Source: Polytrichum commune
Taxonomy: Eukaryota > Streptophyta > Polytrichopsida > Polytrichales > Polytrichaceae
Assembly (NCBI GenBank): GCA_950295325.1
Contig: OX485803.1
Span: forward strand, 42,053,554-42,117,553
Length of the DNA stretch: 64,000 nucleotides
Direction: 5' to 3'
Position numbers and translations under genes: made by a program. Of the stretch, positions 53,901-64,000 are shown piece after piece. Under the pieces are notes generated by a model. It was not told the origin of the DNA, did not search any database, and was given only the letters and a program-made list of their open reading frames with translations. The first letter of the stretch is position 1, and each line of letters opens with the position of its first letter.

Positions 53901-56247
53901 CTTTGCATACAAGATCAATAATTTCTTTCCTGTGCGGTGCATGCTCGGAGGCAGTAATTGAATTTGAATGGAGAGCAACCCATTTCAGTTCATTATGGGC
54001 CAAATTCAATTTAGAACCTCTTGGAATGCCAGAATTAGTTTGACCCTCAATGGACCAATATAGAATGTAATTCTTTCAAACCTCCACACTACCCTCCAAG
54101 CATGTACCAAAAACATACCGAAAATGGAAGTTCTTGAATGAAAAACAACTAACTTCCGACCAAAGCCATGTTCAGTTAATGAAATAACTCTTTATGCACC
54201 CATGTCTTTTGCAAGAACATGTAGTTGAGGTTATTTAAAAATCAAAAGACCTTAAGATCGCAAAAAAAGAAAACCCTGCAATGTTTCTAAAATATGCCAA
54301 GAAAGTTGGTGCATCATCAGGTCCAAATTGGATTTCTTGGAACTCACTGTGTTCACAGTCGATGCCTGGTACATTCGTGCCCATCGTGCAGAATGCGATG
54401 GCTTCAGCTGATCCAGCAGCAACTTCACCCCCTGAACAAATACATCCCAAAAAGGATTAAAGTTTCGCAAATGCAGTTCACTGAACCAGCAATTTTCAAT
54501 GAGAGAGCAACCAAGAAAAGTGTCCATAAGAGACAAAATCTGATAAAACCTCAATCTGTAGGATGCATTTCATAATACAAGGTCAACTCAAAATGCAGGA
54601 TGCTGAATAATTGTCGCTTGTGAGTCTGGGGCTAAAGAGAGCTGAATTACAAATCAATATTAATGCAACCACCAAAGGCGGGGCTAGAAGTTTACAGCAG
54701 CAGGCATTTTCAAGCCACCTATGATCTTGGCAAGCTTCATACACTTGATGCACCCAAAAAAAATATTCCACTATATGATTAAACTTTTGCAAAAGCAGTT
54801 TGCTGTACCAGCTGTACCAGCAATTTTCAAATGAAAGAGGAACCAAAAACAGACTCCATAGAAGACAAAATTCAATACAACCTCAATCTGTAGGATGCAC
54901 TTAATACTACCAGGATAGCCCAGAAATGCAGAATGCCAAATAATTGTCACCTGTGAGTCTTTGAGGCTAAAGAGAGCAGAAATACATATCAATATTAATG
55001 CAACAACCACAGGCAATGTTGAAGTTTAGAGTGGCAGGCATTTTTGACCCATCTATGATCTTGGCAAGCTTCACAAAAGAATATTCCAGTATATGATTAA
55101 GCATATCCAAATGCAATTTACTGTACATGCAATTTTCGAATGAAATAACCAAAAAAGAAACCATAGAAGACAAATTCGATATATCCTCACTATATAGCAT
55201 GTACTCAATAATGCAGGATACAAATTAATTGTCACTAGTGAGTCTTTGAGGCTATAGAGAGCTGAAACATATATCGCTATGAATGCAACAACCAGAGGAA
55301 ATGGTTGAAGTTTTACAATAACAGGCATTTTAGATCCACCTATGATCTTGGCAAGCTTTATCAAACGCCATTCCACTATATGATTAAACTTTTGCACATG
55401 CAATTTACTCCACCAGCAATTTTCAAATTGAAGATCGACCAAGCAAAGAGTCCATAAAAAGACAAATCGATATAACCTCACTCTGTAGCATGTACTTAAT
55501 AATACTAGGTCAACTCCAAATGCAAGATGCTGAATAGTTTCACTAAAGAGAACTAAAATTTACATCCGGATATTAATGCCACCATAACCAAAGGCGGAAT
55601 CAAAAGTTTTACAGGTACAGGAACTTCCGATCCACCTATGATCTCCAAAAGCACGAAATACAACATTCCAGATCCTAAGCCACACTTCCATTTAACCTAC
55701 TACTAATCACTAGATGGCCAACAAATTATCAACAATTTCAACAAACTAACCCAGAAATTACAATCATCATGGCTATGACTTCCAAACCTTGCAAGGCCAA
55801 AAACATAGCCAAGAATCTGATGCGAATGTCACCATGAATTAAAAGGCGCCATAAAAAGCATATGAAATACATTTGCATAGCTGCAGAGGAGGACGCGTAG
55901 TACCCACGACCCCACTTAGAAACGACGATCGTAACCAATCCTCCATAACATAAACGAAAATAAACAAAAAAACAGAAAATGGCAGCCTCAAGATTATCAA
56001 GCGAGCACACATCAACCCCCTCAAGAAACAGCATCCATAACCCCAAGAAATGACAAGATTGACAACATTAGAGCTACAAATTACAAACCCACCTCACATA
56101 GCTACCAATCTCCATTTCCATGTCTTAATTCACCAGCCCTAGCCCAGACCACAAGTTCCCACAACAAAACCAATCTTGGAAAAACCATCTCACAGACACC
56201 TCACAAAAACCTCACAAAAGCCTACAAAAACTCCTTACCCGAGGCAT
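44916..56247 (-). CDS. CSY: Mitochondrial citrate synthase, about 19 coding exons over 11.3 kb
   Basis: The enzyme condenses oxaloacetate and acetyl-CoA in the TCA cycle. Exons in order are 56239-56247, 54348-54431, 53605-53646, 52979-53044, 52725-52790, 52063-52176, [exon 7 unresolved], 50354-50436, 50012-50061, 49708-49785, 49280-49408, 48918-48960, 48245-48331, 47595-47696, 47309-47416, 46581-46631, 46376-46449, 45600-45651 and 44916-45020 (stop TGA). All listed junctions keep phase. The catalytic residues are His in [12 protein letters not shown], His in [17 protein letters not shown] and Asp in [11 protein letters not shown]. The N terminus ([22 protein letters not shown]) is Arg/Ser-rich without acid clusters, as in a mitochondrial presequence. 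The 446 resolved residues plus about 21 from exon 7 fit the family (~470). The intron after 52725 has a GC donor. The expected exon 7 is seen only as a doubtful match near 51215-51280. Confidence 0.93.
48670..48770. repeat. TA/GATA/GT microsatellite in a citrate synthase intron
   Basis: TATATA, then GATA/AATA units, then a GT run and GTAT repeats. It lies in the intron between exons 48918-48960 and 48245-48331. Confidence 0.9.
51498..51975 (+). mobile_element. Tourist-like MITE, copy 4, inside citrate synthase intron 6
   Basis: It starts GGGCCACTTTACACTACGGG and shares the body order of copies 1 and 2: CATATGCAACCGGGCTCTCAA, GTTAGACCCACCTC, GAGGTGGT and CACCAATGAGAG. It is the most diverged copy, and its right end is decayed (TCATGTCAAGCCCCG). 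It sits between exon 6 and the place expected for exon 7. Confidence 0.75.
54440..55640. repeat. Diverged tandem array, about four units, in citrate synthase intron 1
   Basis: Units start near 54611, 54943, 55229 and about 55535, a spacing of roughly 285-330 bp. Shared blocks are GTGAGTCT..GAGGCTA.AGAGAG, AATGCAACAACCA.AGG, CCACCTATGATCTTGGCAAG, ATATGATTAAACTTTTGCA and CCAGCAATTTTCAA. A partial unit abuts the exon 2 acceptor. The same short peptides appear by chance in the frames of each unit; I do not think the array is coding. Confidence 0.8.
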
Positions 56248-56249
56248 TG

Positions 56250-56654
56250 CAGCAAATTAGTCGCAAGGAGAGCTTGGCTTCTCCGATGAGGAATCGGATC
56301 TCTGAGTCCGCGGTGGACACTCTCCTTGAATGAAACCACTTGACAAAACTTCCCTTTCTGTGCCCCTCTCTCTCTCTCTCTCCCCTCTCTTTTCGCCACG
56401 GCTCCATGTGTATGCGAAGGTCAGCGGTGTGAACAGAGCACAGTGTCACGTGACGTGGAGGGCGGGTGATGTGGCGGGAGATTGGGTGACGTGTATCACG
56501 TCCCATTGGGGGGAGTGTGTTGTGGAGGTTTGAGTACATCTGAGGTGGACATCCGATGTGGAACCGGCTGAAAAGTAGCATGAAGAGTCAAGCACAAAGG
56601 ATTTGACAGCAGTCAAAATTGGAAATTTGGAATTGCCAAGTGTTGTAGGAGGAG
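56250..56654 (-). promoter_or_regulatory. CSY: Likely citrate synthase promoter and 5' UTR
   Basis: About 400 bp lies between the citrate synthase ATG (56247) and the left end of the MULE. It holds a G-box CACGTG at 56447-56452 within an ACGT-rich stretch, CCAAT on the - strand near 56485-56481 and 56508-56504, and a GA/CT run at about 56366-56390, common in plant 5' UTRs. The transcription start is not visible from sequence alone. Confidence 0.5.
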
Positions 56655-56663
56655 GTCCACCAT

Positions 56664-57024
56664 GGATCTCTGTAATGTAGTCTTACGAGCGTTTGGCGGG
56701 GGCCTCCCGCGGGTAGCGCTCCCCGTCGGGCAGCCCGCCCCTGCCCGGCCTCCGAGACCCCCCCACACAGACTTCCGCGACCCATCCCGCGACCCGCGAC
56801 TTCACCCAACCCGGGAACTTCCATCTGTCGCCCGTCTCCGTTCGCGATCCGCCGTCGCTGCCTCCCTCCTCTGCCCACCCACCCCCCTCCCCGTCGCCCT
56901 ACTGCCCCCATTTCCGTCTGCTTCAGCCGCCGTGCTCCTCCTCCGCCGCGGTGCAACACCACAGTGTTGCCGTCCTGAGAGCTATGGCGTCATAGCGTTT
57001 TGCCGTCCTGGGAGTTGTCCTGGA
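56664..57024 (+). repeat. Left terminal inverted repeat of the MULE (361 bp)
   Basis: Very GC-rich and nearly identical to the right repeat. The chief difference is about 16 bp missing after CCCGGGAACTTCC. It presumably carries the promoter of the + strand gene, whose ATG lies 79 bp inside. Confidence 0.93.
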
Positions 57025-57102
57025 AGTCCCGAGGGTCAGCATCTCTGGGGTTTAGGGTTCGGAGAAATCGGCGAAGGGCTTTTGCAGCGCCGGTGCTTCA
57101 AC

Positions 57103-60025
57103 ATGGCAGCGAGGGTGAGTTCATTTTGCTTCATGTTGTATCGTCCATGTTTGTTGCATTCATTTCGTAGTGCGCCGCTTCCGTCTCCTGATGACCGCAT
57201 ATCGTTGCGGTTGTGTCGACGCTGCCTGTTGTTGATCCATTTTGTTGTCTTATTTCCAGGACGCTGACAGGAAAGGAGCAGATCTGTCCGCGCTGTCGTA
57301 TGCGGATGCAGTCGACTTTTTGCGGGAGCACGCCACCATCTTGGATTACTCCACCCTCGGTAGGAAAGAGCAGCTTGCGCTCGATGCAACCTCACCGGGC
57401 ATCGTCCCCGGGGTGAGTACTTTGACTGCGCCCTATTTGATGTTGTGTATCTCCCTGATCTTTGCAGGAGTCCTAGGTCCTAGGTTGCTCCCAACTCGTA
57501 ATTCACATGTTGTCCCCGCGTATCCGCACTGTCATGTGAACGGCCTGTCGTATGAGGGTTTTCCAGGTCACGGTGAAGAATAGGAAGGGGGAGATGGAGA
57601 AGGTGATCCTGTGCACCACAGTGTGGACTGATAAGCCTCGCATGAGGGAAGCTTATACCCTCTCCGAATTCGACTGGATGGTAGTGGAGGTCAACGCATT
57701 GTGGCGGCGGAAGCATCGAACGCTGAACATGAAGTCAAAGCGAATTCCTTTCTTCTGCCGCCTCTGCAACAAAGACATGGTGGACAAGTCGGAACTGGCC
57801 TGGCATCGGCAGCAAGACTTGTGCCCCCTGTACACAGCCATCAAGGATGATCCCCTTAAAATGTTTCCTGTCAACGGGGCCAAAGGCAATTCTGAGATAG
57901 CGGCGGTCTTCAAGATGTACAAGATGAAGCTCCCGTGGCAGAATAGAGGCACTGGAGGAAGTAGGCCGCTAGACGAGTCTTCGGTTGAGACCGTGGAGAT
58001 GGAGCACGCCGTCCAGGAGAGCAGCGATGGTTCCAGTGGGGACAGTGCTCACACGGCCCAACCACCACTGAAAAAGAGGACTCTGGATAAGTCCACTCTG
58101 GAGGACATAGAGGAAATCAGGACGAGGCAACAAGAACAGGGGATGAAGGATGCCGGGAACTCCGCAAGGAAGGCAAAGGGGAAAGCGAAGGAGAAGGGGA
58201 AGGGGGAAGTGGATGAGACGCTGAAGCCTCAGGCGAGTTCCAGGACGACGGCGCCACAACGTCCTGTGGGCAAAAGACGGTCCCCTCTTCGGAGTCCGGG
58301 TGCCAGGACGCGGGGTCTAGGTGTCCGTCCTGCTTAGAGTTTTGCCCCGACTGCAGTGCCGCTAGACAGTATGCCGCCCCCTCCAATGCATCCCAGGGCA
58401 GAGTTGGAGGGTCGTCTACGGATTCGGGCTGCAGCCAAGTTCCCAGAGGTGGCTGCAGGGGAGGCGCCGGTGAAACCTGGTAAGCCGCCAGGGCTCTACA
58501 GTCTGATTGAGCAGACAGGGGACGTCATTGACTTGGAGCTACTCACTTGCCTCCAGAAGTCAAAGGACGCCGTGCTCACTCTCCATGCCAATGGCTTGCT
58601 TGGCCGGAAGATTTTCAACGCCTGGGGCGCCTTCTCCATGGACCCAATGATCAGAGTTAGTCCTCTACCGTCCTCAATTTTTCCCATTCTTCCTGTCCAA
58701 GAAGGGTGCCACTGTCATGGACAACATCGCCCCTCATTTTATTTTATTTTATTTGAAATTTTTATTGCTTCCGCTCGCCTTTCAACATTTTTTCCTTTCA
58801 TATCCCTCTTCTTATTGCTTGGACCAACTGTCATGGATGACCCAAACAGGATGGTCTTCCTATGCTTGTTTACGAAGCCGCCAAACAGTGCCTCGAAGCG
58901 TTCCGGATAAAGGACGAATCAGCAATGAAGAACGAGATTGAGGCCTTCATTCGCCACCACGCCGATGTTCGTGTTTATCAACAACAGGCAGATGCTTGGC
59001 AGCTGGCTAAAGAGACACTGAAATCCCAGAGGGCTACCTACGTCGCAGCGGGTCTCGAGCGCTATGACACAGGACTGCTGCTGGAAGCCAAAGCTCGGGT
59101 GTGGCAGTGGTTGCCACTATGTCTGCGCCTCCTAGAGAAACCTGTCCCAAGATTTCTATCGCTCCCGTGCAAGCATAACGAGGAGGAGTTCCAGGACATC
59201 CTTACCTGGATCCGAGCACAGTGTCGTCTCCAGGACACAAGTACCGGCCCGCCGCCCTTCGTTCGTGCCCTAAAGTTGTTCAGTCGTCGTGAAAACGGTG
59301 TTGACGCCCCCATGATTTGTCCCCGGGTGGGAGTCTTGCACAATGTCATGCAGGACAGGATGGCTCAGGTCAAGTTTGCAATGCGGGACTTGCCTACCCT
59401 AGGGCTGTTCCTTTTCCCTTCCATGGACGTTACCGCCACAGATTTTGAAGCTTTCCTTCAGGCGACCGCAACGGGTAACGACCTTGAGGCTATGCATGCC
59501 AAGGCCGCGTCCTGGATGAGGTCGTGTTTCTGGAGGGCTTGCAAAGACATGCTTGCGATGGACAAGGAGGACGACTTGCAGTGTCTATGGCTGGAGGCCT
59601 CGAAGGAACGCCGCGACATGGCGTTAGAGGCCTTCCGTGGTGTCATGCTCTTGCGGGAGGGAGTTGACTTGGAGTATGCCCTTGGTTGCTTAGACTTGAC
59701 AGGGGAGTGGAAGGTTATCCCGAATGACGTCGTCCAGGCGATGAAAGATCTCCAGACCGTTTCTATGAAGTTCTGCATGGAGAAGCTCAGTCCGTGCTCA
59801 GGCGAACCGAATCAACCAACCCACCTGGACGACCTTGAAGGACTCGACCTCCGTGAATTTGGAGCCTCACAAATCCTTTGCACCATGGATGCCCTAGGCA
59901 GGATTGGAAAATGCGATGAGGATGGGTCGCATGCGGCTGAGTTCCAGGACGCGGAACGTCTCAGGGTGGACAGGTCGGGGGATTGTGCCATGACAACCAC
60001 TATGGCCCCAGGCATAATCTTGTAA
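57103..60025 (+). CDS. MULE accessory gene, unknown protein with a C2HC finger, interrupted by an in-frame TAG
   Basis: Function unknown. Exons are 57103-57114, 57260-57412, 57567-58655 and 58850-60025, with GT-AG introns that keep phase, for about 809 codons. TAG at 58335-58337 breaks the frame near residue 312, and the frame continues open beyond it. Visible parts are an N-terminal segment (SYADAVDFLREHATILDYST), a finger FCRLCNKDMVDKSELAWHRQ plus QDLC (C-x2-C-x12-H-x5-C), a Lys/Glu-rich low-complexity stretch before the stop, and a long likely helical C-terminal part (VYEAAKQCLEAFRIKDES, ARVWQWLPLCLRLLEKP). By position it corresponds to mudrB, but I see no resemblance to MURB. It could also be a captured host gene. 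The first ATG was chosen because it lies just inside the repeat and splices in phase. Confidence 0.65.
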
Positions 60026-60298
60026 CTATTGTGACTAATGTCTCTAATACCCCGAACCAACACAATAGCATATTCATCAATTCGGAAAATGCAAATGAGG
60101 GTGTGATTAATGTGACTAATACCTCCACATTCCACGGCAATACACCCACTTTTGTGGAAATTTATTACAAAAATCTGAAAAGTTTCCCCACAACACAGCC
60201 CATGCACAACGAAGACGACTGGTATTGCCGTCTTGGCGTCCTGGTTCGTCAAAGTTCAAAAAGAGAACTAACCTAAACCTAAACCTATCGACGTTGTC
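60026..60298. other. Gap between the convergent MULE genes
   Basis: AT-richer than the rest of the element. It includes short AACCTA-type hexamer repeats at about 60270-60286. It must contain both polyadenylation regions; no clear signal stands out. Confidence 0.5.
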
Positions 60299-63200
60299 TT
60301 ATGAAGCTATCTTCCGCTTCTTGCCAATGTTCCCTCCCTTGTGCCTAAAGCGCTCTAGGAAACTAGGATGCCGTCTAGTATTATTGTCGCACTCCCCAGG
60401 CTGAAACTGTGGTTGTGAAAGTGGATGCAGAAGGCCCGCTTGCGACTTTGCCTGCCTGTCGAAAATTTTCCCCTTCACATTGTTCACCTGCGCCAGAGCA
60501 AAGGTTGTCAAGGACCTGTCCTGGGTCACTATAGACTGAATTTCCTGCAGTCCAGCCATGAATTCTCGGAATTGCCCTTGAGGCCCGCACCACTCCCCAC
60601 CAACAGATGCGCTCGCACCATCTCCATAACTCACCGTCCTCCCTCCTTCAAAGGCGTCAATCGCAGAGTTATCAGTGCCAGCCTGGATAGTCCCCTTCAA
60701 TGTGCCAGCAAGCCTTATTATGAAGGCGTCCTCTACGTCTGGGTGCAAGTGTTTAAACACTTTCATTGCGTGCTTACAAATATTACCCCGCATTCCCATG
60801 GGGCAATCACACTGTGCCCATATGGAATCAGGACAAGTGACGGTCCACACCGCAGGGTAGTTGTTTACAGACAACACTAATGCAATGTCCTGGTCATCAG
60901 GATAGATGGATACATATTCGTCTGGGATCTCCCGGGCTCTTAAGACAGCTCCTGCGACAATTCCTTCTGCCTTCCTATTCTTGATGAATCCGTATAGCTT
61001 ACACTGTACCCCATACCAGTAATGGGTGAGTACATCTCCAATTAAGTGGTACACGAGCCAGTCCATGCGTCTTCCGCTCAGTTTCTGTCGGGTCTGGGTG
61101 AGGATAGTCTTCAAGTTTGCATGGTAAGATTCGATGGCAGTGTTAGTGTCCTGTCCGCAGTGGGGGAAATTTCGGTTACCTGTGACCCACATAGCAGTCT
61201 TACCACTCCAGGTCTCCTCGAAGTAACTTATGAAGCCTTCCGCTGCAGGAAATGTATTTCGTAGTCCACTAATCTTCTGTTTTGCTCGGATAACTGCAGC
61301 TTCTCCCTGAACAAGGTCATTTGAATACATAATTTCTTCAACTGCTTGGAGAACCTCCACGCGTAAGGTTTCGTCCTTGATCTTATGAACGGCATTCTCC
61401 TTCCACGCCTTCCTAACGTGCCAAAGGCAGAGCATGATTGGCACTCTAGGCCAAACCGTCCTGGAGAAACATGACAGAGCCCGAGATGAACATCGTCATG
61501 GGAACTTAGGAACTTTGCATGAATAAAAAATGAGGGGTGTGGCTAGGACAGTCGAGGAACTTACGCTATGGCATTGAGCTCCGCCTGAGCGTTGTCAACT
61601 ATCACCGAACCAGGTTCCCAACCGGGTTGCACAGATCGACAACGGTCAGCAAGCTTCTCTAGCCACGGCTGGATGTCTTTCTCCTTCGACTTCCCAACAA
61701 TAACAAATGATACAGGTATGCCGTTCTCCCACTCATCGAACACCATGACAGTATATAGCGGATATTGCAAGTACACGTTATATTAGCAACAACAAATGAG
61801 AGGACGCAGTACAAGACGGGTAAAGATAAAAACATGCATAGCAAATCTACGGACACTCGGACATCTGCGGCGTCTAAGAGTACCTTAGGCTCATTGGTTC
61901 CGAAGGTTGCGTCCATTGAGAGTTGCCTCCTATGCCCGTATCGCACCATCATCTCCAACTGCCACGGGGTTTGAATGGCCAAGCAGTATGGAGCCTCTTC
62001 TTCTTCTGTAGATGGAGCAGTGTCATTGAGATTAATGTTCCCGAACTCGTGGTAATGGAAAACACTGTCCCCATTCTCCTCTTTCCACATGCGGACGCTC
62101 AAGGGATCTCGAGGATGTTTTTGCCACAACTGGGTTGCCCTTTTCTTACATAAATTGTACACATCGTCTGGCATGATAAACGTATCCCTACTACAGGGCA
62201 TGTTCTCCTTGGCGCACTCCCAGACTTCTTTCTTGTGAAATGCCATAACTTGAGCTGGAGAAAACCCCTGGGCTAGCATAGACCGAATCCAGTTGCGTGT
62301 ACGCCATGACAGTCTACCACCCAGAGAGTGCTTGAATCCAGCGAATGAACTACCATGGCATGGTTGTCCAACCCGATTGAAATGATTCATTCCATGGTAC
62401 TGAATCTCGCAGAGATTGTTGTCCATGTAAAGCTGCTTAGCTACAAAATTACATAAGCATCCACGCTTAGATGTCATGCCGGCTTGCACCCGGCTTGCCC
62501 TCCTCTGCTTTCTAGGTCCTATTCTCGCAGGTCCAGGTACTCCGTCCATGACCATGGGACGTTCTAAACCATAATCGGATTCAGAGGACACTTCAGCAAG
62601 CACTAGAGGAGTGAGGGTAGGTGGCCGTCCTATCTTCCCTCCTTTCGTTTTCTTTGCCTCCGCAGCAGCAAGCTTGGCAACTTCCATTGCAGCCTTCTTC
62701 TCTTGTTTTTGTACCCGCTTCTTCGCATTCTTCTGATTTGTAGACATCTTGGACTTTAAGGCGTTGGCAAATATCTTGTCTACCTCTTTCTTAACCTCGC
62801 CTGTCCTATCCAGAGGACCGTATTCGCACTGAAATCTGAGACATGACGGAACAAATCACAGGGAGTACTCTTGTAAACATAGATCGAACACTGTCATAGA
62901 GTACGATGCAGTTGTGCAAGCCTCAAATTGCAAGGGGGGGTTGCATAAAACATTCACATAATTAGGTTACAGTGGAACTCACTTAATTTTTTGCAGGAAA
63001 CTACCTTCCTTTGCATTTTCTACAGTACCTTCCTTGTGCCCTAAGCTGGGAACCTCGTTGAAAGTGCATGGGAAGTCTCGCATGCTCTGCTCTCCAGCCA
63101 CAAAATCACCGAGTCTATCCCAAGGAATGATTGCACTACGAGTATCCCTGCTCCTTCCCCATCCTTGATTTGTTCTCTCTTCCCACATAATATCAGTCCT

Positions 63201-63503
63201 GTCGAAGTGGCCTTCAGGTGGAACTTGTAACTTTGCCCTCAATTTTTCGAGGGTAATGTCCCGCACCCTTGACGTCTCCCCTGCCATGGCTCCCGAGGTC
63301 GACTTGGTGTCCTTCTCGGTATCCTTACCTCCAGATACATGTGCGTCCGAATGAGCAAATCCGTCCAGACACGGATTGCAATCTCCCTCGTACAAACCTC
63401 CCTCGTACAAATCTCCCTCGTACAAACCTCCAACGAAGGGGACATGCTCCGCCCCGAGGTCCACAACGTCGTCCTCCATCCAGGACAACTCCCAGGACGG
63501 CAA
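60299..63503 (-). CDS. MULE transposase with SWIM zinc finger (mudrA-like)
   Basis: It would cut and rejoin DNA at the terminal repeats. Exons are 62983-63503, 61884-62835, 61565-61764 and 60299-61460, all consistent in phase, giving about 944 aa. Motifs in order: an N-terminal 5-residue repeat (LYEGD/LYEGG); a Lys-rich basic region followed by KKTKGGKIGRPP; first catalytic Asp in RRQLSMDATFGTNEPK; second in VIVDNAQAELNAIA; the MULE C-x2-H motif in MLCLWHVRKAW; TNTAIESYHANLKTIL; and SWIM finger CDCPMGMRGNICKH (C-x-C-x8-C-x-H). The C terminus is basic (GKKRKIAS), a possible nuclear signal. The 3' end of intron 2 lacks AG: exon 3 is preceded by TTGCAA. MPSW at 63503 lies inside the right terminal repeat; MEDD at 63479 is an alternative start. 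Confidence 0.88.
63391..63432 (-). repeat. 15-bp tandem repeat in the transposase N terminus
   Basis: Almost three copies of a CTCCCTCGTACAAA(C/T) unit. On the - strand each encodes a five-residue Leu-Tyr-Glu-Gly-(Asp/Gly) motif. The frame is preserved, so copy number can change without breaking the protein. Confidence 0.85.
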
Positions 63504-63855
63504 AACGCTATGACGCCATAGCTCTCAGGACGGCAACACTGTGGTGTTGCACCGCGGCGGAGGAGGAGCACGGCGGCTGAAGCAGACGGAAATGGGGGCA
63601 GTAGGGCGACGGGGAGGGGGGTGGGTTGGCAGAGGAGGGAGGCAGCGACGGCGGATCGCGAACGGAGACGGGCGACGGACTTGGGGACGACGGGCGGAAG
63701 TTCCCGGGTTGGGTGAAGTCGCGGGTCGCGGGATGGGTCGCGGAAGTCTGGGTGGGGGGGGTCTCGGAGGCCGGGCAGGGGCGGGCTGCCCGACGGGGAG
63801 CGCTACCCGCGGGAGGCCCCCGCCAAACGCTCGTAAGACTACATTACAGAGATCC
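63479..63855 (-). repeat. Right terminal inverted repeat of the MULE (377 bp)
   Basis: The inverse of 56664-57024, with an extra ~16 bp near 63690. Its inner edge coincides with the second possible start codon of the transposase, so it supplies the promoter and possibly the first eight codons. Confidence 0.93.
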
Positions 63856-63864
63856 GTCCACCAT

Positions 63865-64000
63865 GGCCAGGGATTCGTGGCACTCAACTAAAGTCATCCA
63901 GTAACAAAAATCAGATGAGTCCATCAAGTAGCTCGGATGAAGCTTACTTTAGTGAAACGCCTCCCAGTTGGCATGTCAGACCTATTTTCTCCCTCATAGC
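63865..64000. other. Host flank to the right of the MULE
   Basis: Follows the second target duplication. The ancestral empty site would join the sequence ending at 56663 directly to 63865 onward. Nothing else is recognisable in this short piece. Confidence 0.6.

Follow-up and report, generated by a model that had tools for sequence, protein, structure and literature searches.

A two-gene Mutator-like element of Polytrichum commune and its recurrent convergent partner gene

A transposable element with two genes that face each other occupies positions 56664-63855 of a 64,000-nucleotide stretch of Polytrichum commune DNA (contig OX485803.1, 42,053,554 to 42,117,553, forward strand; hereafter the window, to whose numbering plain coordinates refer). 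One gene encodes a transposase, the other a protein that we call the partner. We found that the pairing of the two is recurrent and nearly always convergent in the genome searched (G000), that the partner is old, co-diverges with the transposase and is constrained in the comparisons that one genome makes possible, and that the two genes form a long-established system and not one produced by recent capture. The likely interpretation is that of a Mutator-like element (MULE) with a co-inherited accessory protein, in which a linker joins a C2HC finger to an all-helical core, the two genes being read towards each other from opposite terminal repeats. The partner is most likely a DNA-binding accessory protein, perhaps with an anti-silencing function.

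Pairing and co-inheritance of partner and transposase

The searches cover a single 408-Mb genome, nearly all of it held by the first seven contigs (42-78 Mb), and since they ignore introns and score only the best candidates, the counts are lower bounds. Queries with the partner core and with the last exon of the transposase returned at least 108 and at least 104 matches, respectively. We then recorded which transposase loci have a partner module nearby, the modules being finger regions from two further lineages (91 and 120 matches), the core, and the Ulp1 protease domain of Pfam (78 matches) that accompanies the partner in one lineage. A convergent module lies within 12 kb at 92/104 transposase loci (91 with finger or core, one with Ulp1 alone), compared to a mean of 0.53 and a maximum of 4 in 300 trials of random placement, and the two-gene convergent MULE proposed in an initial annotation of the window is thereby borne out. 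The 92 comprise 6/6 loci of lineage A (close to the window element), 59/68 loci of 42-59% identity (lineages B, A2 and others, including the locus with Ulp1 alone) and 27/30 loci of lineage C (38-41% identity); the remaining 12 consist of one with a non-convergent Ulp1 only and 11 without any module. Searching with a transposase of lineage B yielded another 44 loci, 18 with a convergent module and 26 with nothing recognised, bringing the total to 110/148.

The pairing is likewise apparent from the partner side. A transposase lies within 12 kb of 39/108 core matches and is convergent in 39/39 cases (random mean 0.76, maximum 5 in 200), these 39 being drawn from 32 close matches (9), 40 distant matches (30) and 36 fragment matches confined to about residues 206-257 (none); the 108 are matches and include the fragments, and a few loci contribute two. 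Similarly, 94/156 near-full-length finger matches (260 bases or more) have a listed transposase no more than 12 kb away, and all 94 pairs are convergent.

Partner and transposase also have congruent histories. Across 27 pairs (5 of lineage A, 2 of A2, 20 of B) the path distances in the two trees correlate with r = 0.99, a value as high as which was reached in 0/2000 permutations, and the correlation persists within the 20 lineage-B pairs (r = 0.94; 0/2000 permutations). The trees have 15/24 splits in common. This comparison was made without E34, without the remaining close core matches (which have no paired row) and without three partnerless transposase rows (two of lineage C, and L082, which is A2-like); rooting was at the midpoint, and in the partner tree the tail of E32 past about residue 289 has probably been read in the wrong frame.

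The partner is under purifying selection in three subfamily comparisons (dN/dS 0.14-0.21). These are the three pairs of intermediate divergence among 15, all of lineage B, with partner dN/dS values of 0.137, 0.153 and 0.206 and corresponding transposase values of 0.084, 0.063 and 0.141. Between the window element and its relative E31, partner dN was 0.215, and the transposase gave a dS of 2.1 and a ratio of 0.047. Overall the partner evolves at about three times the rate of the transposase. As the core occurs in each of the four lineages inspected (A, A2, B and, in one element, C) and the partner is co-inherited in A, A2 and B, the suggestion that the partner might be an independently acquired accessory function is not supported in the sense of a one-off event; recurrent convergent pairing and congruent trees led us to reject a one-off capture of a host gene. 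Related MULEs lacking the partner altogether, an outcome that the initial annotation had named as one that would speak against a two-gene system, were not what we found.

Partner architecture and the Ulp1 protease of lineage B

The partner is built of the C2HC finger, the linker and the helical core, which in lineage B are followed by a Ulp1/C48 protease domain. The finger has the spacing C-x2-C-x12-H-x5-C in lineages A and B, with x4 before the last C in L084, the sole lineage-C element read, and a lineage-B finger query recovers the window finger as the weakest match among those listed (E 5e-4). In an alignment that is uncertain for the diverged cores, the window core is 21-25% identical to B cores and 18% to the C core (read in one element), with 14 invariant columns across 20 sequences; B cores also match the C core, at E values as low as 7.5e-10 against a 9.3-kb target. 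AlphaFold predicts the B core (model A3) to be entirely helical and to include a helix of about 60 residues (pLDDT 74, pTM 0.59), and model A1 reached a pLDDT of 57. Searches of NCBIfam and of PDB sequences returned no credible relative of the core. Matches to TAL effectors (best E 0.0005) were set aside because they arise from repeat arrays in which no individual stretch passes, and a PMD search that matched nothing anywhere is uninformative, as its controls were equally silent.

In lineage B the Ulp1 domain lies downstream of the core on the same strand. A convergent transposase lies within 12 kb of 31 of the genome's 78 Ulp1 matches (at 8.7 and 11.4 kb in two cases), and 24 of the 78 are preceded by a partner core at a distance of 1.2-1.7 kb. 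Conversely, the 40 distant core matches resolve into 24 with finger, core and Ulp1 on one strand, 12 with finger and core, and 4 with neither arrangement. We infer that finger, core and Ulp1 are exons of one gene in lineage B. The catalytic H, D, Q and C residues are kept in translations of 14/14 Ulp1 loci read out of the 78, these loci having been chosen mainly among the better Pfam scores and beside transposases. Two loci, C1:55541286-55545526 and C3:26387616-26391736, carry the finger, the core and Ulp1 in that order on a single strand and have no listed transposase within 12 kb; they are either decayed elements or candidate domesticated genes.

No Ulp1 was found in lineages A and C. It was detected neither in the window element nor in the stretches retrieved for E31 to E35; no Ulp1 accompanies any of the 32 close, A-type core matches within 6 kb, nor does any of the 91 lineage-C finger matches have a listed Ulp1 match on its strand within 8 kb. 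The arrangement typical of KIU genes, Ulp1 within a gene reversed to the transposase, was not found in the window element or its close kin and is present in lineage B. Because lineage C falls outside A plus B, given the midpoint root, a single gain of Ulp1 in lineage B would be the simplest account. The alternative, that the ancestral partner already had Ulp1 and lineages A and C lost it, draws on the Ulp1-carrying MULEs described for several plants in PMC2528002 and PMC13317346, by which the domain could be old. It is unlikely, as it calls for two losses where one gain is simpler and runs against both the outer position of C and the lack of Ulp1 at the C-finger and close A-core matches; this judgement depends on a root that is not independently fixed and on the listed Ulp1 matches.

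Structure and state of the window copy and its relatives

That the window holds a mobile element with two facing genes was confirmed, and the coordinates, the 9-bp duplication, the 361/377-bp repeats and the transposase with its facing gene given by the initial annotation proved exact on re-examination of the sequence. The whole element (56664-63855) is flanked by a perfect 9-bp target-site duplication (TSD), GTCCACCAT, at 56655-56663 on the left and 63856-63864 on the right, and it ends in terminal inverted repeats (TIRs) of 361 bp (left, 56664-57024) and 377 bp (right, 63479-63855) that differ by 4 mismatches in 361 aligned columns and by 16 gap columns. The element thus has the TIRs of the MULE superfamily, as well as a TSD within its 8-11 bp range. 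In the window the G+C content climbs to 50-55% at 56001-64000, tracking the element, and is 34-43% in the rest. An Rfam search of the window gave no match.

The partner gene, on the plus strand, has four exons, whose junctions were read by eye, without transcripts, and spans 809 codons: a proposed exon 1 (57103-57114), exon 2 (57260-57412, with a homologous segment in E31 and E32), exon 3 with the finger region and linker (57567-58655) and exon 4 with the helical core and the stop codon (58850-60025). The transposase gene lies on the minus strand and is split by introns. Its N-terminal exon (62979-63479, 3' edge approximate) is followed by one or more exons at 61884-62855 (5' edge approximate) bearing the first catalytic D, in MDATFG (61911-61913), by an exon at 61565-61764 with the second D, in IVDNAQ (61594-61596), and by the last exon at 60299-61460 (5' edge approximate, by eye), which contains a CxxH motif, the catalytic E in AIESYH (61130-61132), a SWIM-like CDC..CKH pattern (about 60746-60817) and the stop codon. 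We take these, read by eye, to be the DDE residues and a SWIM-like motif of the transposase. The Pfam SWIM model scores 19.0 bits on the window's last exon and 9.7 bits on E31, both under the cut-off of 19.6. The Pfam MULE model gave no match to the window's own unspliced open reading frames (ORFs); it does match the E31 transposase once spliced (59.2 bits, cut-off 27.6, E 5.7e-16), and the last transposase exons of E31 and the window share 83% identity.

Each gene has its first ATG on the inner boundary of a repeat or a short way within it: that of the partner is at 57103, 79 bp inside the left repeat's end at 57024, and that of the transposase is at 63479, the very start of the right repeat. 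These positions suggest that each repeat probably holds the promoter of the adjoining gene.

Two lesions had escaped the initial annotation, an in-frame TAG at partner codon 312 (58335-58337, in exon 3), where the E31 homologue is open, and a CAA in place of the AG acceptor at the transposase intron end near 61765, just upstream of the exon with the second D, where E31, E32 and E33 have CAG. On the basis of the premature stop codon and the lost acceptor the window copy, although structurally complete, is probably inactive, unless an alternative splice acceptor is used. Its earlier description as full-length is therefore apt for structure and probably not for function.

Complete elements with TIRs and 9-bp TSDs were recovered at 4/5 loci examined, the window included. 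E31 (C6:12585958-12595792, 9.8 kb) has TIRs of 392 columns at 85% identity and the perfect duplication TGTGGAAAG, E32 (C3:24484766-24493634, 8.9 kb) has TIRs of 375 columns at 83% and GGTTCATAG, and the lineage-B element E38 (C5:21176943-21189042, 12.1 kb) has TIRs of 80 columns at 94% and GTACACTTA. As three of these four other elements have perfect 9-bp duplications of their own, we exclude that the ends of the window element were matched by chance. The fourth, E39, has a 30-bp inverted match, and no duplication was found. The ends of E33, E34, E35 and the lineage-C element L084 were not found within the fetched stretches. Between the two genes of E31 (L031, 5354-6317) there is about 1 kb of dense inverted self-matches, for which the window element, with under 300 bp between its genes, has no room.

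The 36 fragment matches to partner residues about 206-257, none of which has a listed transposase within 12 kb, were set aside as pieces of a separate repeat family, to which they probably belong. Members of this family at L028 (C1:21234341), L029 (C4:14281110) and L030 (C1:47469788) carry only this fragment of the partner, together with inverted arms of 443-560 bp and a stretch resembling the transposase N-terminus. One end of L029 and of L030 resembles the initial 83 bases of the window element's repeat at 78%, as do four more ends near fragment matches; L028 has no such end. The family apparently consists of non-autonomous derivatives of a related element. Elsewhere in G000, where Pfam detects many plant light-harvesting genes, an apparent gene array of about 95 kb (C5:1751760-1846160) contains 14 Chloroa_b-bind matches with identical scores. 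One light-harvesting protein of this genome has its best match in 9vfj and its next best in chains of the Physcomitrium entries 7xqp and 8htu, which, taken with the seven large contigs, would point to a moss.

Known two-gene MULEs and possible roles of the partner

In layout, the window element resembles maize MuDR, an element whose anatomy, beyond its ORFs mudrA and mudrB, comprises terminal repeats, a 9-bp duplication and a second gene convergent with the transposase, as is the second gene here. The likeness is one of layout only: the partner has a C2HC finger and a helical core over its 809 codons, with Ulp1 in relatives. PMC6446971 names mudrB, mutB and vanB/vanC as extra MULE ORFs, describing mudrB as a protein of unknown function apparently needed for integration and assigning mutB a DNA-binding role. 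Unlike mutB of Mutyl (Yarrowia), the partner is convergent with its transposase.

In behaviour, the nearest counterparts are the VANC/KIU genes of the VANDAL elements (Arabidopsis). VANC and its Ulp1-bearing form KIU are MULE accessory genes reported to act against silencing. According to PMC5735166, VANC is less conserved than VANA and carries DUF1985 and DUF287, and PMC13317346 describes VANC genes with and without Ulp1. The partner shows a similar pattern, being an accessory gene that occurs both with Ulp1 and without it and that is conserved less well than the transposase beside it (compare PMC13317346, PMC5735166 and PMC10398659). By contrast, DUF1985 was not found above chance: its only match in the genome (E 0.95) is below the cut-off and off the partner loci, 14 control genomes are also without a match, and none was found among 20 core proteins. 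We therefore rejected an identity of the partner with VANC/KIU. VANDALs are, moreover, termed non-TIR MULEs (PMC13317346), whereas the window element has long TIRs, and it is for both reasons, the failure to find DUF1985 and the TIRs, that we do not class it as a VANDAL. The Kaonashi (KIU) elements offer a further parallel, as Ulp1 is reversed to mudrA in the KI-MULEs of grapevine work and to the transposase in lineage B; in PMC2528002 both orientations are given for melon and rice, and Ulp1 is also placed in CACTA elements. Here, however, Ulp1 is preceded by a C2HC finger and a helical core and not by DUF1985, none was found in the window family, and E38 has 80-bp TIRs and a 9-bp TSD. PMC13317346 dates Ulp1 capture in non-TIR MULEs to the monocot/eudicot separation. 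Judged by title and abstract opening, none of the open-licence papers that the literature searches listed describes the present partner or Ulp1 MULEs in a bryophyte.

By analogy with these systems, the partner may serve to protect the element from host silencing, with de-SUMOylation by Ulp1 where the protease is present, a role that we put forward tentatively, at a little less than an even chance. Each terminal repeat would act as the promoter of its adjoining gene, the partner's finger would bind element DNA in trans, and the partner would help the element to evade silencing directed at its non-coding termini, the role that VANC and KIU have in VANDAL MULEs; Ulp1, where present, would remove SUMO from chromatin or silencing factors. 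Several observations weigh against this account or against the constraint and co-inheritance from which it starts. It is built on analogy and not homology, DUF1985 not having been found above chance, and the failure to find Ulp1 in lineages A and C means that a link to SUMO cannot be general; damaged Ulp1 copies also occur (a replaced cysteine in E39, a frame shift in E38). No Pfam family fits the core, and Foldseek found nothing better than E 0.4 in PDB or 0.08 in BFVD for the core models. Synonymous change in the partner is saturated in four lineage-A pairs, and in eight pairs of recent copies, which differ by few changes, dN/dS scatters from 0.27 to 1.9 with one value undefined. Finally, 37/148 transposase loci lack a recognised partner module and one has a non-convergent Ulp1 only, and 62/156 near-full-length finger matches have no listed transposase within 12 kb.

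These solitary finger matches, together with the gene capture that is described as frequent in MULEs (PMC2528002), are what one would cite if the partner were a passenger, that is a host gene caught by chance and retained by hitch-hiking. They also temper our finding that the partner does not occur merely as a host gene, the other outcome that the initial annotation had named as contrary to its view; the remaining 94 of the 156 adjoin a listed transposase. A passenger would be expected to be replaced or lost, whereas the core is found in all four lineages, dN/dS is low in three comparisons, the trees are congruent and every one of the 94 finger-transposase neighbourhoods is convergent, making this explanation very improbable. 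A more serious competitor, which we consider only slightly less likely than the anti-silencing role, is that the partner assists transposition, its finger binding the terminal repeats to aid cutting or integration with no part in anti-silencing. The C2HC finger in the elements read from lineages A, B and C, the co-inheritance with the transposase and the roles ascribed to mudrB and mutB (PMC6446971) all agree with such a helper. Yet it leaves the protease of lineage B unexplained, and the roughly threefold faster evolution of the partner is unexpected for a core subunit of a transposition complex.

On the most far-reaching reading, the partner would represent a non-VANC accessory family fixed in several deeply diverged MULE lineages of a non-flowering plant, one of which would have recruited Ulp1 independently of the KIU genes of flowering plants as a convergent, SUMO-linked counter-defence, a proposal that we hold with somewhat less than even confidence. 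The sister lineages with and without Ulp1 that coexist in one genome offer a natural setting for testing the role of the protease. A second, fast-evolving accessory family that lacks DUF1985, stays with the transposase across lineages and in one branch has the type of protease domain found in KIU would point to a recurring need of MULEs for a helper of this kind.

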